From assembly GCA_000341795.1 (NCBI GenBank), contig AODO01000034.1, forward strand, positions 1-64,000: 64,000 nucleotides of DNA, given 5' to 3'. A program made the position numbers and the translations under genes. The notes under the pieces were generated by a model, which saw only the letters and a program-made list of their open reading frames with translations, did no database searches and was not told where the DNA came from. Source of the stretch: Rhodococcus triatomae BKS 15-14. Lineage in GTDB: Bacteria > Actinomycetota > Actinomycetes > Mycobacteriales > Mycobacteriaceae. This document shows positions 11,047-21,227 of the stretch, one piece after another; positions within the stretch are counted from its first letter, which is position 1, and each line of letters begins with the position of its first letter.

Positions 11047-11151
11047 ATGCTGAACAGGGGAATGCGGGCAGCAGGTCGGCATGTCTGGGCGATCCGCACG
11101 CGGCTCCTCACCGCCGCGACCGCGGACGACGGGATGTCCACCGCGGAGTAC
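11047..11151 (+). pseudogene. DUF4244 pilin-like gene, 5' fragment (interrupted by element)
   Basis: Codons 1-35 of a DUF4244 small Flp-type pilin candidate (Rv3656c-type). A ribosome site (AAGGGGG, 11034-11040) precedes the ATG. The fragment runs to DDGMSTAEY, the conserved processing-region motif, and stops exactly at the 8-bp element junction CGGAGTAC. After the junction the frame continues into element DNA for about 77 unrelated codons. The hydrophobic helix that forms the pilus core is on the other side of the element at 21108-21227. Joining the halves restores a 74-codon ORF in frame, so this is a recent and clean interruption. Confidence 0.9.
11144..11151. other. attL of the integrated element
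   Basis: CGGAGTAC occurs here and at 21100-21107, and host pilin sequence lies outward of each copy. The short identical core is typical of large serine integrase sites, where recombination occurs at a central dinucleotide inside a few identical bases. Confidence 0.85.
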
Positions 11152-12152
11152 TCAGAACGAGCTGATTACTTCCGTATGCCAATTGATCCCCGAGGTGCTC
11201 GCAACACCTGGGGGATCTCGCTCACAACGGAAGAGACCCGTCATGAACGAACGCAGCATAGCTGTATCTGTCGCTCCATGCCTGACGCTGACACCGCAGA
11301 GTGTCGCGACCCCATGGATATTCGCAGCCTCCGACGCCATCGACTAACGACACGTTCCGTTCTCCAGGACATCTCTCCCTAGGGCTCGGTGCGGGCCGTT
11401 GGTCTGTCGTCGTTTCAGGGCTGCCCGACGCTAACCAGCAGCTCCCGGTGTACGAAATCCCACCAACCGGGGTGGGCGCTCCTGAGGTGGGTCTGGCCAG
11501 ACGCCGCAGGAGTCAGCGCCAGCCTGTTCGCATCTTGCGGATGGGCTACTGGTGTTGCCGAGACGCGGTATCGGGGCATGGTCCGTGGGAAATTTCCGGG
11601 GTGGGGTTTACGACACCGGCACCCTTGGGTGCTCCTTCTGGTCCGACACCGCCGCCCGTAGGGCGTCCGCTCCGGATCTGGGACGACCTACTCGCCGAGG
11701 GGCTCCCGTGCCATTGTCCGTTCGCGAAGATCGGCGAGGAGAACTACGGCCTGCTCGCCTACCAGGACGCCAAGCACCTAAATTCGACCGTTCCGGCTTG
11801 CAGACGTCGGCCTAACTCGGGGGTTTACGTCCAGAATCTCCCCGAGCTGTGACCGCGAACACGTCGCAAACTACGCGGTCTGGTCGCCGTCGCAAGCAAA
11901 TGACCTGGGAATTTCACGAATGTCGTTCACAACATCTCGCGTGTTGCGGCAATGTCTGCCACAAGGTGTAGTGTCAAAGCCGCTGGAACGCCAAAGCCCC
12001 GACAGTCGGGGCGAGGCCCTCCGGTCGGGTGAAACGTTCTTCGGCTGCATTTGCGGTGCTTGCCAGACGTTACACCGGACAGCTCAAGTTGTCCTAATTC
12101 AGGTCAACTTGAGTGGAGGACCTCACTGAAGCCTTCCAGTGGAGGAAATGTC
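11152..12152. other. Left arm of element without a convincing gene
   Basis: About 1 kb follows attL. It holds an imperfect hairpin at 11188-11214 (CCCCGAGGTG with CACCTGGGGG), and a possible 34-codon ORF at 11243-11347 with GGAAGAG upstream. There are also overlapping + strand ORFs between 11301 and 11852 (183 and 87 codons) with no recognisable domain, a possible -10 TAGTGT near 11969-11974, and a hairpin GCCCCGAC-A-GTCGGGGC just after it. I cannot assign any product. The ORFs may be chance, a decayed gene or an unknown cargo gene. Confidence 0.4.
12083..12113 (+). promoter_or_regulatory. Inverted repeat before the rightward element genes
   Basis: CTCAAGTTG (12083-12091) and CAACTTGAG (12105-12113) are perfect 9-bp arms separated by 13 bases, 39 bases before the start of the 49-aa gene. 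It could be an operator for a dimeric regulator or an mRNA hairpin. Confidence 0.5.
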
Positions 12153-12302
12153 ATGAGTCCTATCCGTCGCACAACCACGACCCATCGGACCAGCACCACG
12201 CGTGTGCCGATCAAGATCAGGCGCAGTGGAGCCACGATTCACCGGACGATCCCGATGAAGATCGAGATTGTCACCCGCACCACGACGGTTCGGGGGCGGT
12301 GA
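12153..12302 (+). CDS. Small basic Thr/Arg-rich protein, unknown
   Basis: A 49-codon ORF with a strong ribosome site (GGAGGAAA at 12141-12148) before the ATG. The product is very basic and rich in Thr, Arg and Ile, with a pattern of alternating small basic and beta-branched residues. No family recognised. Its stop is two bases before the GTG of the next small gene, suggesting an operon. Rightward orientation at the element edge, opposite to the capsid operon, is the usual place for cargo genes. It could also be a leader peptide. Confidence 0.5.
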   Translation: MSPIRRTTTTHRTSTTRVPIKIRRSGATIHRTIPMKIEIVTRTTTVRGR

Positions 12303-12304
12303 CC

Positions 12305-12421
12305 GTGGCTAAGAAGGGCGGAAGCGGCAAGGCCCGCAGCGCGATCACCGGTAAGTACGTGAGCAAGCAGTACGCGGCTTCTCACCCGAAGACGACTGTC
12401 GTCGAGGGAAAGAAGAAGTAG
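12305..12421 (+). CDS. Small conserved-type protein with TGKYV...HPKTTVVE signature
   Basis: A 38-codon ORF starting with GTG. The product begins VAKKGGSGKARSA and contains ITGKYVSKQYAASHPKTT, a signature that I recall from many very short hypothetical proteins in actinobacteria and other bacteria. Function is unknown. The pattern suggests a compact basic nucleic-acid-binding or regulatory peptide. A longer reading from 12113 exists but its first 64 codons look noncoding. It is coupled to the 49-codon gene upstream. Confidence 0.6.
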   Translation: MAKKGGSGKARSAITGKYVSKQYAASHPKTTVVEGKKK

Positions 12422-12500
12422 GAACGTCAGCTGGGGGTCGCCACGTCGACCCCCAGCGGGCCTACCTACGAATCGAACGCCCACCTGAACATGGCACAGC

Positions 12501-12536
12501 CACCACGTAGTCACGTAACAACGTGAGCACGTGGTG
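12501..12536. repeat. Perfect two-tier hairpin between convergent element genes
   Basis: CACCACGT (12501-12508) pairs with ACGTGGTG (12529-12536) and TCACGT (12511-12516) pairs with ACGTGA (12521-12526), with an AG/GC internal mismatch and AACA loop. It lies between the rightward small genes and the end of the leftward capsid operon. There is no T tract, so a terminator role is uncertain. Confidence 0.6.
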
Positions 12537-12546
12537 ACGTGATTGC

Positions 12547-12602
12547 GTGCCTCTGTGCCTCTGTGCCTCTGTGCCTCTGTGCCTCTGTGCCTCTGTGCCT
12601 CT
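12547..12602. repeat. Seven tandem copies of the octamer GTGCCTCT
   Basis: Seven perfect 8-bp units occupy 12547-12602 without interruption, just beyond the two-tier hairpin and before the connector gene end. Perfect identity implies recent slippage expansion. It is noncoding. Confidence 0.95.
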
Positions 12603-12619
12603 ATACGAGTAGTTGGCTA

Positions 12620-13027
12620 CTAGCCGCCTGATTCGAACGCGCTGCCGTGCCGAGTCGGCGGCACGAGGTCGGGGACCAGAACGCCGAACCGTGCGGTCGA
12701 GTTGACGCCGAGGATCTCCCACTCGGCATCGGTGACCGTCAGCGTTCCAGCCGTCAGATCCGACCGGAGTTCATACGTGTACGAGCCGTCCGTCTCGGAC
12801 GAGTACCCCTCGGGGTTGCGGACGAGGCGTAGGACGGCGTCCGCCTCGGTGTCGATGACATCGGCCCGGTAGGTCTCGCTGGCCGCGACCTTGGCGTCCA
12901 GCGTCGGGATCCGTCGCCTGAGCATGCGTTCGACCTGTTCGAGCCTGCGCTCGATCAGCGTGATCACCTCGGGCTCGGGTTCCTTGGCCCAGAGCGTGGT
13001 TACGTCAGCGGCTGCGGCGTACGCCAC
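12620..13027 (-). CDS. Phage head-tail connector (Gp15/Gp19-type adaptor)
   Basis: A 135-residue protein that resembles siphophage head-to-tail adaptor proteins, which sit under the portal ring. The N-terminal YAAAADVTTLWAKEP... pattern followed by long helices (ITLIERRLEQVERMLRRRI) and a C-terminal beta-rich part with LRLVRNPEG is characteristic of this group. It is the last gene of the leftward capsid operon. No portal gene accompanies it, so it may act on a helper-phage portal. It overlaps the preceding 38-codon ORF by 23 bases. Confidence 0.75.
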   Translation of the reverse strand: MAYAAAADVTTLWAKEPEPEVITLIERRLEQVERMLRRRIPTLDAKVAASETYRADVIDTEADAVLRLVRNPEGYSSETDGSYTYELRSDLTAGTLTVTDAEWEILGVNSTARFGVLVPDLVPPTRHGSAFESGG

Positions 13028-13121
13028 GGTCTGCCTCCTTCGTGGGCTTGGGCAGACTGGCCTTCAGCCGGTCGCCGTTCAGCGGGTTGTGCGGTACTCG
13101 ACGACGGTTACGTCGGGGCAT
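13005..13121 (-). CDS. Small basic protein, unknown
   Basis: A 38-codon ORF with GGAG 8-12 bases before its ATG. The product contains RRNRRRVPHNPLNG and a Lys/Arg-rich end, so it is strongly basic. It overlaps the connector gene start, which suggests translational coupling. No family recognised. It may be a true small structural or DNA-binding gene of the element. Confidence 0.5.
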   Translation of the reverse strand: MPRRNRRRVPHNPLNGDRLKASLPKPTKEADRGVRRSR

Positions 13122-13186
13122 GTCGGTGTCTCCTTCGGTAGTGCGTAGGGGCCTGCCTGCTTTTGGCCGGCCCGGAGCACGGTCGG

Positions 13187-13579
13187 TTATAGAACCCAGG
13201 TTTTCCTGGGCGTTTGTGCTTGCGCCATCAGCGCGGCGTGCCGGTCGCGCTGCTCCTGAGTCGGCTGAGGCGGTACGTACTCGTCCACGACCGGAGGAGC
13301 TGGTGGCTCCCACCGGTCGACCGCGGTCGGCGCAGCCAGCGCCTGCCGGTAGAACTCGGCAGCCGACAACCCGGCTGCGTCCATCACCACCGGGGCCAGA
13401 TCCTGGCCCTGGCCTGCCGTCGCCTGGTTCAGCCAGTCGACGACGTGAGAGCGCATCGCCTGGTAGTCGCCGGGGGTACCTACCCCCTGCAGGGACTTGA
13501 GTTCGTCCGGCAGGAGGCCACTGAGGGCCTCGGGAGTCAGGGCCTCCCGCTTGCTGCTGCGGCGTGTTGGTCGGCCCAT
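13187..13579 (-). CDS. Element structural/packaging protein, unknown
   Basis: A 130-residue protein whose ATG overlaps the stop of the small terminase gene (TGATG) and is preceded by GGAGGA inside that gene's end. The N-terminus is basic (GRPTRRSSKREA), followed by helical acidic segments and a proline-rich C-terminal stretch PPAPPVVDEYVPPQP. Position between small terminase and connector suggests a head protein or decoration function, but nothing specific can be recognised. Confidence 0.6.
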   Translation of the reverse strand: MGRPTRRSSKREALTPEALSGLLPDELKSLQGVGTPGDYQAMRSHVVDWLNQATAGQGQDLAPVVMDAAGLSAAEFYRQALAAPTAVDRWEPPAPPVVDEYVPPQPTQEQRDRHAALMAQAQTPRKTWVL

Positions 13580-13944
13580 CAGTTCCTCCATCGGGCTGCA
13601 GCGCCGAGCTTGCCCAGCTCGGACCGGGTCAGGGTGTCCTCGTCGTCGGGACACCCAAGCGCCTTGAGGAGCTGGACCATCAGCGCCCGGTACTGGCGCA
13701 GCTCGAGAAGCTCGGGCATCGCCACCGGCTGGCCCTGGGATCCTCGGACTCGGATCTCGTCGGCTGCGTCCACGATCTCCTGCAGCCGCTTCGCCACATC
13801 AGCGGTACGGCATGCCTCCTCGAGGATCGCCATCTTCTCGGGTGCCTCGGTGAAGTCGTACACCGTGTGCAGCTCCCGCCAGAGCTGCTTTCCGCGTGCG
13901 AGGAGCCCCCTCGGGGCCCTCGGAATCTCGTATTTCTCGGCCAT
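13579..13944 (-). CDS. Small terminase-like protein (TerS)
   Basis: A 121-residue protein with the phage terminase small-subunit pattern: a short N-terminal segment (EIPRAPRGLLARGKQLWRE), a long helical region (EKMAILEEACRTADVAKRLQEIV) and a C-terminal helical oligomerisation part. Such proteins recognise the packaging site and recruit the large terminase. In satellites a private TerS redirects the helper's large terminase to satellite DNA. The ATG at 13944 has AAAGGAGG just upstream. The longer ORF beginning at 14058 has no ribosome site. No large terminase is present in the element. Confidence 0.75.
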   Translation of the reverse strand: MAEKYEIPRAPRGLLARGKQLWRELHTVYDFTEAPEKMAILEEACRTADVAKRLQEIVDAADEIRVRGSQGQPVAMPELLELRQYRALMVQLLKALGCPDDEDTLTRSELGKLGAAARWRN

Positions 13945-14221
13945 CGGGGCCTCCTTTGGGGTCGATGAAGAGGCCCTCAGGGGGCCGTATGTGCAGGTCA
14001 GGGGAAGATCAGCCCCGGAAAAAAGACGGGTCGGCGGCATGGCCGAGGGACAAACCACCTCGATGCCACGGCATCGGATATCCCAGCCGCATTAGGGCCC
14101 GGTCTAGAAGGCCCCCTAGGGGGTACCCCCCCACCCCTCCCAGGGGTGGGTTGACCTGGGGAAACACTGGGTCGAGGCGTGTCGGGCCAGCGCGAGCGCG
14201 ACGAGCTGCCACGATGCACAG

Positions 14222-14386
14222 ATGCAGACGCCAGACACCGACCGCACGGGTCCGGTCCTCGACGGACTCGACGCCGTGTTCTGCGAGTACCTCAGGGTCG
14301 ACCCGGTGGTCGATCCTCTCGAGTGGAGACCTGAGCCTGGTCAGGTACCCGAGGCAGTAGGCCCAGGGCTGTTCTACGAGGGGTAG
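14222..14386 (+). CDS. Possible small acidic protein on the opposite strand
   Basis: A 54-codon ORF whose product has a protein-like composition (LDGLDAVFCEYLRVDPVV, EWRPEPGQVPEAV). There is no strong ribosome site. The opposite strand has an ORF (14009-14431) with a less natural composition rich in Arg and Cys. Between the small terminase and the 102-aa gene about 550 bases otherwise hold only GC-rich palindromes such as CCCCCTAGGGGG near 14114. Low confidence. Confidence 0.3.
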   Translation: MQTPDTDRTGPVLDGLDAVFCEYLRVDPVVDPLEWRPEPGQVPEAVGPGLFYEG

Positions 14387-14497
14387 GTACCGCGTACGTC
14401 TTGAGCAGCCCAGCAGCGTATGGGCAAGCAACCAGGGAACTGGTCGGGCAGCTCCCGGCAGTCGGTGCGTGCAGCTAACGGGTGTGTTCTGAGCAGC

Positions 14498-14806
14498 TCA
14501 TGCCAGCTCGGACAGATCACCTGTCGTGACCGGTGCTCCGTTGCGGAGCCGGTCGAACGCCTCGGTCGCGGTCTCGCCGCTCGTGAACGCTTTGTCGAGC
14601 GCCTTGATCAGCAAGCTGCGGCCACCGTCACCCTCGGGGGTGCCGTCGCTGAGCGGGAACAACACATCCGCATCGTTGGTGTAGAGGGTGACACCCTCGT
14701 ACGGGTACGCCCATCGACCGGGGCCGGTCCTGGGAAGCGCCTCGAAGTCGGGAAGCGCCCGGATCCCCATCGACTGACTGTCCCACCGGTCAGCTGGATT
14801 GCTCAT
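14498..14806 (-). CDS. Element protein of unknown function (102 aa)
   Basis: The product begins MSNPADRWDSQSMGIRALP, contains WAYPYEGVTLYTNDADVLF and ends with helical segments ALDKAFTSGETATEAF. It is acidic, soluble and without a recognised domain. The ATG at 14806 lies just after the stop of the 104-aa gene (14827), whose last codons contain an AGGAG. The two are probably cotranscribed. Confidence 0.6.
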   Translation of the reverse strand: MSNPADRWDSQSMGIRALPDFEALPRTGPGRWAYPYEGVTLYTNDADVLFPLSDGTPEGDGGRSLLIKALDKAFTSGETATEAFDRLRNGAPVTTGDLSELA

Positions 14807-14826
14807 GCGCTGAGCGTATCGGGCTC

Positions 14827-15141
14827 CTAGCTGGTCTTGCCCTTGCGGATCGCGTACCACTGAGTCGAGCTGATGCCGGATTCCAGCGCCAGCGTGCGGA
14901 GCCGGAACGAGTGCTCTAGGTACCGGCTGAGTCCGTCGCTGGCGGCGACGACCTCGGTCCACAACTCGTTGGTCAGCTCGGAGTCCCCGAGGGTCTCGCA
15001 GATCCGTTGTGCAGCCTCCAACTCCTGCCCGATCACCCGGCACGGGAAGCAACAGAACCGGTGTCCGTCGAAACTGAGCCCTGGGCATCCTTCACGCTCG
15101 CACGGCGTGGACGTGCGGCGTCGGGTGCTGGTGCGGGTCAT
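14827..15141 (-). CDS. Putative zinc-binding element protein (104 aa)
   Basis: The first 40 residues carry CEREGCPG and, about 13 residues later, CCFPC, a four-cysteine arrangement consistent with a zinc finger. A helical C-terminal half ends with a helix-turn-helix-like ESGISSTQWYAIRKGK. This combination suggests a small DNA-binding regulator rather than a virion protein. The ATG at 15141 has GAGAGAA upstream. A terminator-like hairpin precedes it (15179-15203). Confidence 0.6.
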   Translation of the reverse strand: MTRTSTRRRTSTPCEREGCPGLSFDGHRFCCFPCRVIGQELEAAQRICETLGDSELTNELWTEVVAASDGLSRYLEHSFRLRTLALESGISSTQWYAIRKGKTS

Positions 15142-15172
15142 CGTGGGTTCTCTCCTCGTGTCGTTACGAACA

Positions 15173-15203
15173 CAAGAAGCCCCGAGGGTGTGAGCCTCGG
15201 GGC
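15173..15203 (-). terminator. Terminator-like hairpin between capsid gene and 104-aa gene
   Basis: GCCCCGAGG (15179-15187) pairs with CCTCGGGGC (15195-15203). On the minus strand the stem is followed by TTCTT. It would end or attenuate transcripts leaving the capsid gene. Confidence 0.6.
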
Positions 15204-15253
15204 CTCCTGCGTGGTGCGGACTACGTCCGCGTAATCGACTGTGCTGCAGTCGA

Positions 15254-16081
15254 TCAGGCTGCGTCGTACAGCCGGACGATGCCCGACGGGTTCGCAAAAC
15301 CGAATCCGACACGGGACACAGCCCGGATCTGGGTTGCGTCCGAACCGAACGCGGCATCCTTCGACGTGGTGACCGTGGTACCGCGACGACGAACCGTCAT
15401 CACCTGGGTCGAGTCGAGCGCCCAGGCGTTGCCCGCAGCAACCGCCGGGGAGATCAGGGCCACGAGGCCCGCGAGCCGGATCCCGTCGTCCACGGTCTCG
15501 AGGAGACCCTGGTTCGAGCCGGTGCCGGTCTTGGCCTTGGCAAGCGCCAGCGCCACGTCCGGGGCCAGGACGATATGGGTCAACTCAGCACCCTCGGCGG
15601 TCGCATCGTGCTTGGCCTGGTGGAAGTGGTCCAGCGTGGTCCACGCAGCACCGGTGTCGACCACCTTGACGCCAGCAACCGAGAGGAGTCCGCTCGGGCC
15701 GTTGGCCACGGTGTTGCCGAAGAACGCGGCGTCCGTCTTACGGGCGATGTCTCGGGCCAGCGCCCGACCGATCATCTCCGCCACCGCAGGATCGGTGTCG
15801 TCGACAGCCTCGTTCGAGACCTGGGTGAGGCCCGCCACCTTGGACGGGACCACGACGATCTCGTTCGTCACGGGGTCGACCAGGGTGATCGGGGAGTTCT
15901 CGGCGTACCAACCGGTGGCCGGATCCTTCTCAAGCACCGGGAACCGGACCTGGTGCTTGTCGGTGTCGACCACGGTCGCGGCCTGGAACGCCACAGACTT
16001 GGCGTTCACCTCGGCGTCGACGAGGACGCCGTAGTCCTCGGGGGTGAATGCGTTCTGCAGGGTCGAATTGAGAGTTGCCAT
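15254..16081 (-). CDS. HK97-fold major capsid protein
   Basis: A 275-residue phage major capsid protein. The sequence shows N-arm LNSTLQNAFTPEDYG, an E-loop region rich in beta residues, a P-domain helix VAEMIGRALARDIARKTDAAFF followed by NGPSGLLS, and A-domain segments THIVLAPDVALALAKAK and a terminal GFGFANPSGIVRL. There is no N-terminal delta domain and no protease gene, so assembly probably relies on the separate scaffold protein. AGGAGG precedes the ATG. It is the clearest virion gene of the element. Confidence 0.92.
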   Translation of the reverse strand: MATLNSTLQNAFTPEDYGVLVDAEVNAKSVAFQAATVVDTDKHQVRFPVLEKDPATGWYAENSPITLVDPVTNEIVVVPSKVAGLTQVSNEAVDDTDPAVAEMIGRALARDIARKTDAAFFGNTVANGPSGLLSVAGVKVVDTGAAWTTLDHFHQAKHDATAEGAELTHIVLAPDVALALAKAKTGTGSNQGLLETVDDGIRLAGLVALISPAVAAGNAWALDSTQVMTVRRRGTTVTTSKDAAFGSDATQIRAVSRVGFGFANPSGIVRLYDAA

Positions 16082-16103
16082 GTGGGTGCCTCCTGTGGGC
16101 ATG

Positions 16104-16134
16104 AAAAAAGGCCCCTGACTTGGCGTCAGAGGCC
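16104..16134 (-). terminator. Intrinsic terminator between scaffold and capsid genes
   Basis: On the minus strand a 10-bp stem (16134-16125 with 16119-16110, one mismatch) is followed by six T. It lies directly before the ribosome site of the capsid gene, so it separates the scaffold and capsid transcription units unless read through. Confidence 0.75.
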
Positions 16135-16235
16135 CTGATGGGGTGGTGACTAGGAGTCGGTCACGGACCGAATCCCATTGGGGCACAGCCCCTTATGTGC
16201 GGACGCCTCGAGTCGCAGACCCGGCGTCCAACGAT

Positions 16236-16706
16236 CTAGACGGCTCGGAAGATCGAGCCCCATTCGGGCGTCGGCTGCTTCGGCCGCGCTCCTCCGGTGC
16301 CTCGGGTCGGGTCGAGAGCCGGGGAGTTCTTCCGCAGCCCCGGACGCTCGGCGAGAACCGCCGCGACATCAGCGGCCACTCGAGCCGGATCGACGTTGCC
16401 GTCGTCGTCGAGGTAGTCGGCTGCCTCGTTCCCGCTCAGCGTGAACACGTCGGATCCCAGCGACAGCCCCGCCTCGGTGGCGAGGCGTTCCACCTCAGCC
16501 CGCTGCATCGTGGCGATGCGGGCCTGAGCTGCAGCCAGCTCGTCGCGGGCTGCGTTACGCTCGGTGCGGTACCGACCCTCACGGTTACCCTTCGGCTGAG
16601 AGCTGTTCTGAGCGTCGTTACCCGCTTCCGTGGTCTCGGTACCGGAATCGGTAGAAACTCCGTCAGCGTTGCTCTCAGCGCTGGGAATCGGTGTCTGTGT
16701 GCTCAT
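16236..16706 (-). CDS. Capsid scaffolding-like protein
   Basis: A 156-residue protein. The first 45 residues are Ser/Thr/Glu rich and disordered. Residues 45-80 form an amphipathic helix (RNAARDELAAAQARIATMQ), and the end is short and hydrophobic (EWGSIFRAV), as in phage scaffolds that bind capsid through the C terminus. It lies directly upstream of the capsid gene, the usual order. Ribosome site AGGAGAGA precedes the ATG. Residues ALSLG... EAADYLDD form the rest of the helical core. Confidence 0.8.
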   Translation of the reverse strand: MSTQTPIPSAESNADGVSTDSGTETTEAGNDAQNSSQPKGNREGRYRTERNAARDELAAAQARIATMQRAEVERLATEAGLSLGSDVFTLSGNEAADYLDDDGNVDPARVAADVAAVLAERPGLRKNSPALDPTRGTGGARPKQPTPEWGSIFRAV

Positions 16707-16714
16707 GTTCTCTC

Positions 16715-16921
16715 CTATCGGTACCGGCGCATAAACAGCGCACGGCGTAGGTCGGTTTCGTCGGTGTCGTCGTCGAGCCCGAGGCGGGCGAGAATCACGT
16801 ACCTGTTTGGGTGTCCCCCCTCGAACCAGGCGAGGTGTCCGGCGTCGTGGACGGCTTCGACGTACGCGTCGGCGATCTCCAGATGCCGCTGGAACGCGGC
16901 CTCACGGTCGCGGGCGTTCAT
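16715..16921 (-). CDS. Small element protein, unknown (68 aa)
   Basis: The product (MNARDREAAFQRHLEIADA... DDDTDETDLRRALFMRRYR) is helical and strongly charged. Its ATG overlaps the stop of the 53-codon gene (ATGA), and its end is 9 bases before the scaffold gene. Such small charged proteins near the early/late border may be recombination directionality factors or regulators, but no specific family is recognised. Confidence 0.55.
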   Translation of the reverse strand: MNARDREAAFQRHLEIADAYVEAVHDAGHLAWFEGGHPNRYVILARLGLDDDTDETDLRRALFMRRYR

Positions 16922-17079
16922 CGGTCCGCCCGCCACTCGGTGATCGTGGCGTTGGTCAACAGGTGGCCGGTGCCCTCGGCGAGCTGGAACACGGCGTTCG
17001 GGCCGATGTCCCAGACGCGTTCGGGTGCTCCTCCGTACTCGGCAGCTCTCGCGACTGCCTCGGTCAGTTGGTCGTGCAT
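16918..17079 (-). CDS. Small element protein, unknown (53 aa)
   Basis: A 53-codon ORF with GAGGAG upstream of ATG 17079 and stop coupled to the next gene. The product contains VWDIGPNAVFQLAEGTGH and LLTNATITEWRADR, a compact alpha/beta-looking peptide. No family recognised. A terminator hairpin and a 39-bp repeated hairpin lie just upstream. Confidence 0.55.
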   Translation of the reverse strand: MHDQLTEAVARAAEYGGAPERVWDIGPNAVFQLAEGTGHLLTNATITEWRADR

Positions 17080-17101
17080 TTCTCTCCTCTGATGGTGGGT
17101 T

Positions 17102-17140
17102 CCGGAGCCTGCCGGTGGTTTGGCCGGCTCCGGTGCCCGG
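17102..17140 (-). repeat. 39-bp hairpin repeat, copy 1
   Basis: These 39 bases are identical to 19351-19389. The unit folds through CCGGAGCC with GGCTCCGG. It lies downstream of the winged-helix gene on the minus strand, as copy 2 lies downstream of the integrase. Exact identity over 2.2 kb implies a recent duplication or conversion. Confidence 0.9.
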
Positions 17141-17146
17141 ATACGC

Positions 17147-17174
17147 AAAAGGCCACGACGTTGCGGTCGTGGCC
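17147..17174 (-). terminator. Intrinsic terminator after the winged-helix gene
   Basis: GGCCACGAC (17151-17159) pairs perfectly with GTCGTGGCC (17166-17174). On the minus strand it is followed by TTTT. It separates the putative replication module from the virion module. Confidence 0.8.
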
Positions 17175-17192
17175 TCGGTTGGGTCGGTGATG

Positions 17193-17948
17193 TCAGTCAG
17201 TCGCGAACGGATCCGGAAACGTGTTCGCGGCTGCAGGCTCGAACCGTGCAGCACGCTCCTCACGAGCGACTGCGTCAGCTCGCCATGCGGGCTCGTCGGC
17301 GAACGGGTCAAGGAACCCGTTCAGCAGCTGCATGCCGACAGGCCGGATCTCCTCCTCGGGTGCCTCGGTGGCACCCTCGTCTGCAGTTGGGTCTGATCCC
17401 CCAACCGCAAGAGACCGGCTCTCATGGCCGGTCTCGTCCTGGTCCTCGAGATGGTTCGGTGTCAGCCGAACCTCTCGCTGATCTGATAAAGGATCTGATC
17501 CGGATCTGATATCCGGATCTGTAGGTGTCCACTCCACTGGACACGGTGTGTCCACTCCAGTGGAACCACTGGTTCGCTCCACTGGACCAACCTCGGGGAG
17601 TTGGTCCACTCCACTGGAACTACCTACCGACTCGGGCAGTTCCACTCCAGTGGAACCACTCGGGGCATCCGGGACCAGCTCGTACACCGAGGTCTTGCCG
17701 GAGGTGCCCGAGCCCTTCCGGGTCCGGACGATCCAACCGCGCTCCTGCAGCGCCTTGAGCGCCAGCGAGACCGCAGCCTTGGAGTACCCGGTCTCTCGCA
17801 TCAGCAGCAGCAGGCCAGGGTGTGAGTTCCGACCGTGTTGGTCGGAGTGGTCGAAGATCGACATCAGGACACGGAACTCTGCCCCGGTGAACTCGTGGCC
17901 GTGGGTGCGCTTGTGCCAAGTGAGCTTGGAGAACTGGTCACTGGGCAT
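17193..17948 (-). CDS. Winged-helix protein, probable replication initiator
   Basis: A 251-residue protein. Residues 1-90 form a winged helix-turn-helix domain: FTGAEFRVLMSIFDHSD, then SKAAVSLALKALQERGWIVRTRKG, typical of phage replisome organisers and plasmid initiators. Residues about 98-141 are encoded by five dyad repeats and read as SGSTGV-type repeats. The rest is acidic and disordered with a C-terminal helical part. A wHTH domain followed by iterons within its own gene is the lambda O layout, so I infer replication initiation. A plain regulator is the alternative. ATG 17948 overlaps the end of the coiled-coil gene. Confidence 0.7.
   Translation of the reverse strand: MPSDQFSKLTWHKRTHGHEFTGAEFRVLMSIFDHSDQHGRNSHPGLLLLMRETGYSKAAVSLALKALQERGWIVRTRKGSGTSGKTSVYELVPDAPSGSTGVELPESVGSSSGVDQLPEVGPVERTSGSTGVDTPCPVEWTPTDPDIRSGSDPLSDQREVRLTPNHLEDQDETGHESRSLAVGGSDPTADEGATEAPEEEIRPVGMQLLNGFLDPFADEPAWRADAVAREERAARFEPAAANTFPDPFATD
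17525..17656. repeat. Five iteron-like dyad repeats inside the winged-helix gene
   Basis: Copies centre on TCCACTCC(A)(C/G)TGGA at 17525-17544 (7-bp arms GTGTCCA/TGGACAC), 17551-17564, 17576-17587 (half), 17603-17620 and 17639-17656 (8-bp arms GTTCCACT/AGTGGAAC). All lie within 132 bp in the linker after the DNA-binding domain. This looks like an origin of replication with initiator sites. Confidence 0.75.
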
Positions 17949-18147
17949 CGCGAGCAGCCTCCAGCTCGGCGATGCGTGCCTCAGCAGCACGGAGGCGGAC
18001 GCGGTAGGTCGCGGCCTCCTTGCGAACGTCGGCGATCTCGCTCTGAGCCTTCCGCAGCCGGACGCGGAAGTCTGCAGCCTCAGCCCGCAGACCTCGGATC
18101 GTCTGCTGGGTTCGCGGCGACAGCCGGTCAAACGTGCTGGTTGTCAT
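17938..18147 (-). CDS. Small coiled-coil protein (69 aa)
   Basis: Nearly the whole product is one charged helix with heptad spacing (IRGLRAEAADFRVRLRKAQ, then VRLRAAEARIAELEAA). ATG 18147 has a weak GGATGA upstream; ATG 18156 is an alternative. It overlaps the winged-helix gene by 11 bases, so the two are coupled. It may oligomerise or act as an initiator partner. No specific family. Confidence 0.55.
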   Translation of the reverse strand: MTTSTFDRLSPRTQQTIRGLRAEAADFRVRLRKAQSEIADVRKEAATYRVRLRAAEARIAELEAARDAQ

Positions 18148-18244
18148 TTGGTTCATCCATTCGGTGGTGTGCCCCGACGACGGTTGTCGTCGGTCGCCTC
18201 CAGGGCGTTTGTGGGCCTGGCATCGAGCCAGGCGGCAGTGAAGA

Positions 18245-18394
18245 TCAAGCAGCAGCTTCGAGAGCTGCCAGTCGGTGTCGTGCCTCGACGCATCGGCGCG
18301 TGTACCGCTTCTGCGCCTCGGCGCGGCAGTATCGGCACCGGCCATCGGGCCGGACGTTGTCCCGAGGGTGTCGGGTACAGGCGTTGTGGTGCAT
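18245..18394 (-). CDS. 49-aa zinc-finger-like peptide
   Basis: The product is basic, with a Cys6 near the N terminus and CRYCRAEAQKRYTRRC, a CxxC motif plus a third Cys, like the knuckle of HNH-type or other small zinc-binding phage proteins. An AAGGAA element lies about 8 bases before ATG 18394. It is the first gene of the leftward operon after the hairpin array. It could be a regulator or the directionality factor for the integrase. Confidence 0.6.
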   Translation of the reverse strand: MHHNACTRHPRDNVRPDGRCRYCRAEAQKRYTRRCVEARHRLAALEAAA

Positions 18395-18520
18395 CTGGGT
18401 GTTCCTTGTCCTGGTCGCCTCAGACGACCGGTGGCGAGCACCTCGCCACGGACGAGGTGGAGCTGATGCGGTGGCACAGCCCGAAGAATGTGGGATCAGG
18501 TGATCCGATACAGGCCCGAG

Positions 18521-18554
18521 AAAAGCCCCGACCTGCCGAAACAGGTCGGGGCTT
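18521..18554 (-). terminator. Intrinsic terminator ahead of the leftward operon
   Basis: A perfect 13-bp stem (18523-18535 with 18542-18554) closes a 6-base loop and on the minus strand is followed by TTTTC. It stands before the first gene of the leftward operon and is the last hairpin of the array at 18523-18899. Confidence 0.8.
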
Positions 18555-18899
18555 CTCGATCAAGTAGCCGCTCGTGATGAGCCGGGACGGTTACCAGCCG
18601 TCCCTTATCCCGGCTGTAAGGACAGCAGCCGGGCCTACCGAGGTTCTCTAGGCCTCGGGAAGTTCAGTCGGTCGGAGGAGGAGAGAGCTACCCCGACCGA
18701 CCACCGACGAGGTACGAGTCTCGTCGGATGCAGGCGAGCCGCCAGGCTCGAGCCAGCAAGATTGAAGGAAGCAGGGTTACCGTCTCCCGTTTTATATGGG
18801 TGTGATTCACACGAGGACCGGCCTCTGAGGGCCGGTCTTATGGAAGAAGGAGCGCTCTTAGGCGCTCTACCAGGAAGGGAGCCGCTTCGAGGCGGCTCC
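18523..18899. repeat. Array of ten consecutive stem-loops
   Basis: Perfect stems occur at 18523-18554, 18584-18604 (GGGACGG), 18609-18633 (CCCGGCTG), 18638-18658 (CCGAGG), 18667-18701 (GTCGGTCGG), 18704-18727 (CCGACGAG), 18735-18750 (CGAGCC), 18816-18837 (GACCGGCC), 18850-18867 (GAGCGC) and 18878-18899 (GGAGCCGC). Stems differ in sequence but are regularly spaced in a 380-bp noncoding stretch. A structured RNA or packaging/regulatory region is likely. Confidence 0.75.
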
Positions 18900-19008
18900 G
18901 AGAGGGAGTGAACCCCTCCGTCTGGTTCCCCTTAACCCTTACATATGTATATGCGTGTCACTTGGCGGATTAGTGACAGTCGTGTGACCAGCTTCACCGC
19001 ATCAGGGG

Positions 19009-19038
19009 TTGACTCTTTGGTCTACCCAATTGTATATG
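19009..19038 (+). promoter_or_regulatory. Candidate promoter in repeat array (upstream copy)
   Basis: TTGACT (19009-19014) and TATATG (19033-19038) are 18 bases apart on the + strand, with TG directly before the -10 box. The -10 is one of the repeated TATATG boxes. Confidence 0.45.
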
Positions 19039-19084
19039 GGTGTAAGTTTGCGGATTCCATACAGTAGTGTGATCAGATTCATAC

Positions 19085-19113
19085 TTGACTGTTCACCGCA
19101 TCAACTGTATATG
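19085..19113 (+). promoter_or_regulatory. Candidate promoter in repeat array (downstream copy)
   Basis: TTGACT (19085-19090) and TATATG (19108-19113) are 17 bases apart with an extended TG. The transcript would run toward the 3' side of the integrase gene, so it could make an antisense or noncoding RNA. Confidence 0.45.
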
Positions 19114-19350
19114 GGTCTAACTTGAAGAGTTTGTTAGGGCAGTGTGACCGGGTTCACCGAACCCTTACATATGTATATGCGTGCGATTCGGCTGGGAACG
19201 TCGCATACGTGTGACTCGATTCACTCCTCGGCATCCTCGGACCTCCAGCGGTCACGGAGTATTTCCAGCTCCCACAACATGAAATGTTCCCGCTCGTCGT
19301 CCGCCATACCCTGGTCAGACGCAACAGGACGGACCTCGGTTCCGAGGGTG

Positions 19351-19389
19351 CCGGAGCCTGCCGGTGGTTTGGCCGGCTCCGGTGCCCGG
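19351..19389 (-). repeat. 39-bp hairpin repeat, copy 2
   Basis: Identical to 17102-17140. It begins at the base after the integrase stop on the minus strand and probably forms the terminator hairpin of the integrase transcript. Confidence 0.9.
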
Positions 19390-21081
19390 TCACTCCTCGG
19401 AAGCTCGCGGGATCTCGAACCGCTCGCCGGTCTTCATCACTACAACCGCCTTGTCGGGGAAGATCTCCATCCCCTGGATCCCTTGCTCTTGCATCTCGGC
19501 GAACCGCTTGGTCACGGTCTCGACCATGCCAGCCGCCTTGACCTCCTCGGCCATCTTCTGCAGCTCGCCAAGCTCCAGGCGAGCCTGCAGTTCCTCCTGC
19601 TTGGTAAACGTCACCCTGACGCCCATCGTGCGGAGGTAGACGTTCTGTTGGGTGAGATCCAGCGACTCCCACCAGTCGCGGAACGTCTCGCCGGTCGACT
19701 CCCAGGTCCACCCTGCGGGCCTGGTAGTCGCTGCAGCCAGCTCCTCCCGGCGCTTATCGAGCGCATCGATGTTCGCGTCGAGTGCGGCGCGCTGCGGCGT
19801 GCCCGCTCGGTACGGACCGCGGCCAAGCTGGCCAGCGAGATCGGCCAGCGTGTTGTCCAGCTCGGCGAGCTCGGCGGCGTTGTCCGAGCCTGCATCCCAA
19901 ACCCGACGCAGGCGTTCGGAATCTCCCATGAGGCCGAGTACGGCGTCCTCGACGAGGTCGTCGAGCTCCTCCGCCACCACGGACAGATTTCCGCATGGGG
20001 CTTTGTACTGGGCAGACGAGCACCTGTACCGGAGCCGTCGACCCTTGGCACCCTTCATCCGGTACGCCGGACGCCCGCAGACTCCGCAGAAAATCACCTG
20101 CAGCAGCAGCGAACTCGACCGTACCGTCGGCTCCTTGCGGTTCTCGCGACTCGCCAGCTCGACCGCGAGCTGGTCGAATACATGCTTGCTCAGGATCGGC
20201 TCGGCTCTCTGGACAGGCGAGCCGTCCGGGCCGCGTAGAACGTCCTCGGGGCCGTAAGTCTTACGTCCGCGTGCATCCAGCTGGGGCTTGCCGTTGGCGT
20301 CTCGTTTAACCTCCCGAGCGGTCGCGTACCCGAGCATCGTTGGTGATGTCATCGACCGCTTGAGCGCGGACGAGTTCCATTGGTGCCCTTTGATTTCTCT
20401 ACCAAGGTGCATGTTCATCCGATCCTTGGCGGTAGGCACCTTGCGCTCGGTCAGATCGTGGGCAATCGCACGCAGAGGCTCACCGGCCAGCACTCGCTCG
20501 GCAACCTCGTTGATGATGGCCACAGCCTCGGTATCAGGGAACAGTCGCCAACCGTCATCGGTCTGGCGAGGTAGGTACCCCCATGGGAGTTGAGCACCGC
20601 CCGTCCATTTCCCGAGCTGGCGGTTGTGGTGATACGCCGAGGCGATGCGAGAGCTGATCGCCTCCAGCTCCAGCTCGGCCACCTTGGCCACCAGGAGCGC
20701 GATGATGTCGCCGAACTGTGTCGTGAGATCCAGGAACTGTTCGGTCGCGGATACGACCGACACCGAGTGCTGTTGGCACCATCGGATCAGATCGGCCAGG
20801 TCCAGCAGCCGCCGGACGATGCGGTCCATCCGGTAGAACACGATCACGTCGAACTCGTGAGCCCGGTTCGTGAGCCAGTCCCCGAGCTGGGGACGCTCGA
20901 ACGGGGTCGTGAGGCCAGCGGATACGTCGAGATCCTCGGCGATGCCGACCACCTCGTATCCGCGCTGTTCGCATAGCTTGCGGCACTCCTCGAGCTGACG
21001 TTCTGGTGAGGTGGTGGCGTCAGTGACCCTCGACAGTCGTACAACGATCAGTGCGCGTGTCGGGTTGTTGGTGACGGCCAT
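19390..21081 (-). CDS. Large serine integrase
   Basis: A 563-residue serine recombinase. The N-terminal resolvase domain (residues about 8-150) has RALIVVRLSRVTDATTSP with nucleophile Ser near residue 17, and FYRMDRIVRR with catalytic Arg residues. The recombinase domain follows (YHHNRQLGKWTGGAQLPWGY), then a zinc ribbon (CGVCGRPAYRMKG ... CSSAQYKAPCG), and a long coiled coil (AELAELDNTLADLAG) with a C-terminal extension. All domains are full length, so it is probably active. Its ATG is 18 bases inside attR. It mediates insertion at the CGGAGTAC core; excision needs a small directionality factor. Confidence 0.95.
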   Translation of the reverse strand: MAVTNNPTRALIVVRLSRVTDATTSPERQLEECRKLCEQRGYEVVGIAEDLDVSAGLTTPFERPQLGDWLTNRAHEFDVIVFYRMDRIVRRLLDLADLIRWCQQHSVSVVSATEQFLDLTTQFGDIIALLVAKVAELELEAISSRIASAYHHNRQLGKWTGGAQLPWGYLPRQTDDGWRLFPDTEAVAIINEVAERVLAGEPLRAIAHDLTERKVPTAKDRMNMHLGREIKGHQWNSSALKRSMTSPTMLGYATAREVKRDANGKPQLDARGRKTYGPEDVLRGPDGSPVQRAEPILSKHVFDQLAVELASRENRKEPTVRSSSLLLQVIFCGVCGRPAYRMKGAKGRRLRYRCSSAQYKAPCGNLSVVAEELDDLVEDAVLGLMGDSERLRRVWDAGSDNAAELAELDNTLADLAGQLGRGPYRAGTPQRAALDANIDALDKRREELAAATTRPAGWTWESTGETFRDWWESLDLTQQNVYLRTMGVRVTFTKQEELQARLELGELQKMAEEVKAAGMVETVTKRFAEMQEQGIQGMEIFPDKAVVVMKTGERFEIPRASEE

Positions 21082-21099
21082 GGGTGTAATCTACGCCCA

Positions 21100-21107
21100 C
21101 GGAGTAC
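21100..21107. other. attR of the integrated element
   Basis: CGGAGTAC, the second copy of the 8-bp core. The next base begins the codon GCG of the pilin gene remainder. In the joined product TAC is codon 35. Confidence 0.85.
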
Positions 21108-21227
21108 GCGATCGGGACCGTGGCCGCCGCTGCGTTCGGCGCGGTGCTGTACTCGGTGGTGACAGGCGATTCGATCGTCTCCGGACTCACCGAGATCATC
21201 GACAAGGCGCTCGACACCGCTGTCTGA
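21108..21227 (+). pseudogene. DUF4244 pilin-like gene, 3' fragment
   Basis: Thirty-nine codons and a stop read AIGTVAAAAFGAVLYSVV and end in EIIDKALDTAV. This is the hydrophobic core and C-terminal helix of the DUF4244 small pilin candidate. It has no own start or ribosome site and continues exactly in frame from 11151 if the element is removed. Length of the restored protein is 74 residues, normal for the family. Confidence 0.9.

Follow-up and report, generated by a model that had tools for sequence, protein, structure and literature searches.

The element and its insertion site

The window analysed here, a 64,000-nucleotide stretch of Rhodococcus triatomae BKS 15-14 (contig AODO01000034.1), carries a mobile element at 11144-21107, a 9,956-bp unit flanked at both ends by the 8-bp core CGGAGTAC and with its main genes, integrase through adaptor, on the minus strand. 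The element is very probably a phage satellite that encodes its own capsid and small terminase subunit (TerS) and relies for terminase, portal and tail on a helper of the type that we take to be cluster A, the phage records themselves giving the genera Fromanvirus and Soupsvirus. The features of its ends are listed below, with L numbers as our labels for individual loci and records.

11047..11151, plus strand: 5' part of the interrupted DUF4244 pilin gene, assigned from its frame, intact in 5/5 congeners, and from PF14029 on the homologue L079
11144..11151: attachment core, copy 1, CGGAGTAC, a repeat at the element end where the flanks overlap in congeners
21100..21107: attachment core, copy 2, CGGAGTAC, a repeat at the element end where the flanks overlap in congeners
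21099..21227, plus strand: 3' part of the pilin reading frame, an intact frame in congeners

The pilin frame is uninterrupted in all five congeneric genomes compared, where the two flanks, searched separately, join with a 7-8-bp overlap at the core, and the joined flanks fall in a small open reading frame (ORF) containing ...STAEYAIGT... in each of the five. The one such frame tested against Pfam, that of congener L079, is DUF4244 (PF14029, E 2.5e-23). The same pilin homologue is occupied in L051, judged to coincide with L002 (Prescottella defluvii), and in L060, and the integrases of these two are 83% and 80% identical to the window's. Taken together, the empty sites in congeners and the two occupied homologues indicate that insertion is site-specific and that the boundaries at 11144 and 21107 are right, upholding the earlier claim of an 8-bp repeat bounding the element inside a pilin gene.

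Gene content

The genes are given below. Among the reference phages, Nedarya is a Gordonia phage (Soupsvirus) and Herbertwm a 51.5-kb phage of Mycolicibacterium aichiense ATCC 27280; WillG is one of the M. aichiense satellites.

19390..21081, minus strand: large serine integrase, 563 aa (PF00239, PF07508, PF13408; phrog_95), 83% and 80% identical in L051 and L060
17938..18147, minus strand: 69-aa protein conserved in relatives
17193..17948, minus strand: winged-helix replication-initiator-like protein, 251 aa (PF13730; phrog_270, E 4e-9)
16918..17079, minus strand: 53-aa protein conserved in relatives
16715..16921, minus strand: conserved 68-aa protein, 77% identical in L003
16236..16706, minus strand: scaffolding protein, 156 aa, 62-68% identical in L051-L054 and 24-27% identical to the Nedarya and Herbertwm scaffolds
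15254..16081, minus strand: major capsid protein, 275 aa, HK97 type (PF05065, E 2.7e-25; TIGR01554)
14827..15141, minus strand: conserved 104-aa protein, 56% identical in L003 and 33% in WillG
14498..14806, minus strand: 102-aa homologue of Nedarya gp3 (46% identity; phrog_4491, E 6.5e-27)
13579..13944, minus strand: TerS, 121 aa (phrog_1496, E 6e-15; matches in 59 phage records, best about 40%)
13187..13579, minus strand: conserved 130-aa protein between TerS and adaptor, 37-73% identical in relatives
13005..13121, minus strand: 38-aa basic ORF overlapping the adaptor gene, 47% match in L059
12620..13027, minus strand: head-to-tail adaptor, 135 aa (PF09355, E 1.1e-26; phrog_137, E 8e-40; 77% identical to Nedarya gp19)
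12305..12421, plus strand: conserved basic protein of 38 aa, encoded opposite to the main genes and close to the attachment site, with 82-87% identity in L001 and L003

The preliminary description had named a full-length serine integrase together with capsid, scaffold, small terminase and connector genes. The 563-residue integrase, like capsid, TerS and adaptor, is confirmed by its profile matches; the scaffold has a weak profile match (phrog_2303, E 0.002), and its identity to the two phage scaffolds makes it recognizable. The initiator-like protein finds no tblastn match in the phage collection, the 130-aa protein matches no PHROG, Pfam or NCBIfam family, and the 38-aa basic protein at 12305-12421 matches nothing in Pfam.

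The element was further compared with 51 reference proteins (19 from Herbertwm, 21 from Nedarya, nine from Alpacados and two from the satellite WillG). The only clear matches are to the Herbertwm and Nedarya adaptors and scaffolds and to Nedarya gp3; short matches to Nedarya gp18, portal and TerS (E 0.002-0.08, 19-39 residues), that to the portal spanning 29 residues at E 0.07, were taken as noise. Ten further ORFs, a selection comprising seven long plus-strand and three minus-strand frames, show no structural PHROG match, and none of the reference HNH proteins or proteases has a match in the element. With no clear match from either the scanned ORFs or the 51 proteins, we judge genes for portal, large terminase (TerL), protease, stopper, tail and lysis functions to be absent at the sensitivity used, in agreement with the earlier statement that portal, TerL, tail and lysis genes are missing. 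As a TerL probe, phrog_2 was uninformative, most of its matches being weak and lying in long frames; the Nedarya TerL protein, used instead, finds matches in five of 13 genomes, none of them at a satellite, and has no match in the element.

A widespread family of related elements

By tblastn, the capsid protein matches 12 of 50,697 phage records, all of them M. aichiense 'phage' deposits of 10.9-11.1 kb (OR387110-OR387121). The four that were opened (L005, L006, L086 and L087) are titled complete genome and share one order, TerS, adaptor, stopper, integrase, helix-turn-helix (HTH) protein, scaffold and capsid with small genes between, which the window element would show if it were opened immediately upstream of TerS, except that the strand of the integrase differs and that these records have a stopper and a tape measure in addition. 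Two of the records have an annotated scaffold; in the other two it was found by homology. Capsid and scaffold show 43% and 52% identity to their window counterparts, and there are homologues of TerS, adaptor, serine integrase and HTH protein as well. A search for a paper describing these records found none, subscription papers and bioRxiv lying outside its scope and a description elsewhere being possible; the lineage seems to be undescribed in the literature searched, though the deposits are public.

In the host family, 89 of 401 genomes match the capsid profile at E 1e-10 or better, many of them weakly. From the 113 capsid rows listed outside the window, we fetched the 20 best-scoring loci, which come from 19 genomes. 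Twelve (L051-L061 and L063) contain integrase, scaffold, capsid and TerS genes, and neither the TerL nor the portal of Nedarya or Alpacados finds a match there; ten of these also have the adaptor, six a stopper and none a tape measure, so that neither of the last two is lineage-wide. Their integrases are 24-83% identical to the window's, and L051, L052 and L054 coincide with L002, L001 and L003, respectively. Seven weaker capsid loci (L064-L070), undecided between satellite and prophage, were not counted as members. In L062 a portal match is present in two pieces. Eight IMG/VR loci comprise the L002 element itself, six satellite-like loci (four with a tape measure match) and L094, which has both TerL and portal matches. 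Judged from these comparisons, the element belongs to a widespread satellite lineage, and the gene order that the preliminary description had wished to see compared in other actinobacteria does recur, at 12 of the 20 loci and in the four M. aichiense records.

A capsid tree of 33 rows unites 20 satellites in a single clade that also takes in L062, L094 and L066. The capsids of Nedarya, Jsquared, Alpacados and Herbertwm, which are only distantly related, lie a long way from this clade. Ratios of nonsynonymous to synonymous substitution (dN/dS) between the window and its relatives are 0.19-0.22 for the capsid (four pairs), 0.22-0.28 for the scaffold (two), 0.12-0.16 for TerS (two) and 0.35 for the adaptor (one pair); these nine pairwise comparisons indicate that all four genes are maintained by purifying selection.

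A tape measure gene or match occurs in the M. aichiense satellites (L005, L006, L086 and L087) and in L090-L092 and L096. The protein has 651 residues in WillG and Alyssa1, as opposed to 807 in Herbertwm, and that of WillG is 63% identical to Herbertwm's over the first 350 residues, which suggests that the M. aichiense branch may set its own tail length. One genome (G182) holds two satellites of the lineage, L053 and L060, differing in TerS/cosB type (see below) and in integrase. In L004 (Rhodococcus opacus ATCC 51881), the capsid gene is partial and apparently decayed, with its match in pieces, and the cos motif is inverted.

A putative helper-like cos site beside the small terminase gene

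Just upstream of TerS lie three features that together resemble a phage cohesive-end (cos) site.

14105..14155, minus strand: GC-rich repeat block 5' of the cut site; a similar block is present in phages, judged by eye
14086..14104, minus strand: cos-like core GACCGGGCCCTAATGCGGC, matching the joined phage ends (0 of 100 shuffles)
14018..14085, minus strand: sequence 3' of the cut, the candidate cosB and putative TerS-binding part, from its co-variation with TerS in 14 satellites

In the records of Nedarya, Rosalind, Jsquared, Bachome and Herbertwm, the two genome ends as deposited join to read GACCGG....TTA/TGCGG (slash at the joint) after a GC-rich block. These five of the six phages checked, all Fromanvirus or Soupsvirus, thus share the core, and Alpacados differs. 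In the window, about 140 bp separate the core from the TerS gene downstream of it. Among the 12 satellite-like relatives, nine carry the motif exactly; in L055 it has one mismatch and stands about 700 bp away from TerS, and in L056 and L058 it has two mismatches. Three of the four M. aichiense records carry GACCGG....TWATGCG no more than 12 nt from the left end, identical to the core of Herbertwm, a phage from the same town as those records. Over 13 genomes (~80 Mb), 12 of them chosen for holding satellites, the exact pattern has ten matches, and all ten are in satellites. The core of L052 and L054 was met in one IMG/VR stretch (L088), whose context is by eye unlike a cos site.

We take the core to be cosN, cut by TerL, and the adjoining sequence to be cosB, read by TerS. 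Immediately 3' of the cut, TGTACGGGTTTCCAAG is found in all five Fromanvirus/Soupsvirus phages and is replaced in the satellites. What replaces it tracks the satellite TerS: with capsid similarity held constant, the partial rank correlation is 0.38 (91 pairs, 14 satellites), a value equalled in one of 2000 permutations. In keeping with this, L060 and the three loci L052, L054 and L056 are 91-94% identical in TerS and 80-84% in cosB, and only 57-63% in the capsid. A TerS that is present and co-varies with cosB may redirect packaging toward the satellite.

Evidence for the type of helper

The adaptor, which is 77% identical to Nedarya gp19, has matches in 1021 phage records, 12 of them the M. 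aichiense satellites. In a tree of 32 adaptors (13 hand-picked phages and 19 satellites), in which many branches are open and a long-branch warning applies, the window's adaptor joins those of Nedarya and Rosalind (97/90) and is separate from the adaptors of the other satellites. The adaptor and cos matches, set against the distant capsid, point to a capsid lineage of the satellites' own that is paired with a connector and cut site of Soupsvirus/Fromanvirus type. The integrase matches 878 phage records, at best with 47% identity, and the best TerS match, to Bernal13-type phages, is about 40%; neither indicates one helper.

The host carries a resident prophage region (G000:C72:170000-206000; L049 and L050) with HNH, TerL and portal matches and no cos motif. 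Its portal match is of 24% identity with one stop in the alignment, and one of its reading frames, 1626 aa long, weakly matches a tape measure protein. Elsewhere, an IMG/VR contig of 51,222 bp (L097) encodes HNH and TerS proteins 100% identical to those of Herbertwm, and a Herbertwm-type helper phage may thus be resident in a sequenced isolate.

Repeats in the element

The element contains two repeat regions.

12547..12602: seven tandem copies of the 8-bp unit GTGCCTCT
18790..19192: stretch without an assigned gene, between the integrase and 69-aa genes, with dispersed TATATGGGTGT-type direct repeats

Tandem arrays of 8-bp units, differing in sequence, stand 3' of the adaptor or stopper gene in the window (12547-12602), L051 (13006-13073), L053 (13445-13544) and L060 (8052-8087). 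The L060 unit, TCGAGTAG, is also found at the parB end in Nedarya, and such 8-bp units, in L060 and Nedarya, are the only repeats seen in common between satellites and helper. The TATATGGGTGT-type repeats at 18790-19192 are candidate operators or iterons; TATATGSGTG occurs there in four copies, and at most once in each of 18 other satellites scanned.

A model, and what weighs for and against it

The preliminary description took the element for a satellite with a capsid of its own and otherwise borrowed parts, and this remains the best reading. Beyond gene content, boundaries and the occupied and empty sites, it draws on the cos core, the grouping of the adaptor, the relatives deposited as phage genomes and the conservation seen as purifying selection, with packaging the predicted step. 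In the model that we propose, the serine integrase inserts the element into, and presumably excises it from, the DUF4244 pilin gene. Upon infection by a helper siphophage of Fromanvirus/Soupsvirus type, the excised circle would replicate via its own initiator-like protein, and scaffold and capsid protein would assemble a satellite capsid around the helper portal. The satellite TerS would read the sequence just 3' of the cut and recruit the helper TerL, which would cut the helper-like cos core and package the 9.96-kb genome; the satellite adaptor would then connect the filled head to a helper tail. The window copy would accordingly be expected to excise, replicate, use helper portal, TerL and tail, and form particles.

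For the family as a whole, we lean, with rather less assurance, toward a lineage that parasitizes cluster-A-type actinophages, having copied their terminase cut site and swapped the adjoining recognition sequence for one suited to its own TerS. Its members would build their own capsid round a stolen portal and take connectors from helpers, one branch using a shortened tape measure to give its own shorter tail.

A number of observations count against the satellite reading or its details. The cos pattern was written after the sequences had been looked at; the four variable bases of the window's core occur in none of the phages checked, and its exact 18-nt core is in none of the IMG/VR contigs. 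A reversed control pattern also gives ten matches in the same 13 genomes, and with equal counts the cos argument rests on location, not number. Among the M. aichiense records, WillG lacks the core and the record ends do not lie exactly at the predicted cut, while the stopper and tape measure of these relatives have no match in the element in the 51-protein comparison. The co-variation may in part reflect linkage, since TerS adjoins cosB, and capsid similarity correlates with cosB as well when TerS is held constant (partial correlation 0.28, a value that was not permuted). Moreover, TerS has no BLAST match to the Nedarya or Herbertwm TerS, its best phage matches being in Bernal13-type Mycobacterium phages. 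L062 and L094 carry satellite-clade capsids together with portal matches, and may have donated the satellite capsid or received it. In the host, where the preliminary description had thought a helper might be sought, none was found: the Nedarya TerL probe finds only the C72 region (36%), which has portal matches and no cos motif. Finally, the window copy is known from sequence alone, and its particles and packaging are predictions.

These points give some room to other explanations. A capsid-encoding satellite with another type of helper, such as the C72 prophage or one like L062 or L094, could draw on the union of satellite-clade capsid and portal match in the latter two and on the TerL and portal matches of C72. 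We consider it unlikely, as the cos core fits Fromanvirus/Soupsvirus ends whereas the C72 region and L062 have no such motif, the adaptor is close to a Soupsvirus adaptor, and the C72 portal match is both low and interrupted by a stop. Quite improbable, too, is a decayed remnant of a normal prophage that has lost portal, terminase and tail and is no longer mobile. Most late genes are indeed missing, the stretches 11152-12546 (save the 38-aa ORF) and 18150-19390 have no assigned gene, and the capsid match of L004 is broken into pieces. Yet the same gene set stands at 12 of 20 loci with integrases of widely varying identity and no Nedarya or Alpacados TerL or portal hit, purifying selection is evident on capsid, scaffold, TerS and adaptor, cos and TerS have been retained together, and relatives are deposited as complete small phage genomes. 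The preliminary description had allowed that all homologues might be decayed fragments of one large prophage; this fails for the 12 loci, but L004 does look decayed.

Very unlikely, in our estimate, is a domesticated element kept for the benefit of the host, for instance to interfere with phages through rogue capsids or connectors, and not for its own transfer. Capsid, scaffold and adaptor could conceivably disturb helper assembly, but the retention of integrase, attachment core, TerS and cos, together with the varied integrases among relatives, argues for selection on transfer, and any interference could still be a by-product of a transfer element. A capsid-making satellite of Fromanvirus/Soupsvirus-type phages stands as our preferred account, and because phages with related adaptors are abundant among the records, named helpers can be tested at once.

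Comparison with known satellites

The M. aichiense records are the closest counterparts: they share with the window element capsid, scaffold, TerS, adaptor, integrase, HTH protein and circular gene order, with cos beside TerS in three of four. Unlike it, the opened records encode a stopper and a tape measure, and the integrases of WillG and Alyssa1 are about 30% identical to the window's and oriented opposite to most of their other genes.

Capsid-forming phage-inducible chromosomal islands (cf-PICIs) are similar in being integrated, in having their own capsid gene, TerS and connector, and in borrowing a tail, as the window element presumably does. They encode, according to the excerpted text of PMC10690885, portal, protease, both terminase subunits and HNH; in the window element no portal, TerL, protease or HNH gene was found. 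With portal and TerL missing, it falls outside the cf-PICIs, even though it would function in the manner of a capsid-forming satellite. The Streptomyces satellites MulchRoom and MiniFlayer, compared by description only from the same excerpts, are likewise actinobacterial and have their own capsid, scaffold, TerS and adaptor; they encode TerL and portal, have terminal repeats and use other helpers (PMC10690885). PICIs of the type of the Staphylococcus aureus pathogenicity islands (SaPIs), some of which redirect helper packaging by their own TerS (PMC10690885, in excerpt), remodel helper capsids and have no capsid protein of their own, in contrast to the capsid gene here. Known satellite families are listed in PMC11389934, and actinobacterial prophage elements below 15 kb could be satellites, experimental validation lagging behind (PMC10023795), both sources being represented here by excerpts.

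The preliminary description had likened the element in size and content to phiRv1 and phiRv2 of Mycobacterium tuberculosis, which by description combine integrase and capsid as the window element does. The excerpts of PMC10654092 class these and other mycobacterial integrase-plus-capsid regions as candidate PICIs or PICI-like, and by the loose definition given there, a phage-like region with an integration gene plus a capsid gene, the window element is a candidate mycobacterial PICI. As far as the excerpted sources go, the known capsid-making satellites (cf-PICIs, MulchRoom and MiniFlayer) bring portal and TerL along with the capsid, so that the boundary of theft differs here: if our reading is true, the satellite shell would have to accommodate another phage's portal at one vertex, and another phage's terminase as well. 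Capsid-plus-integrase elements like phiRv1 would then gain a testable model, in which TerS, a helper-like adaptor and a cos core are the features to look for.

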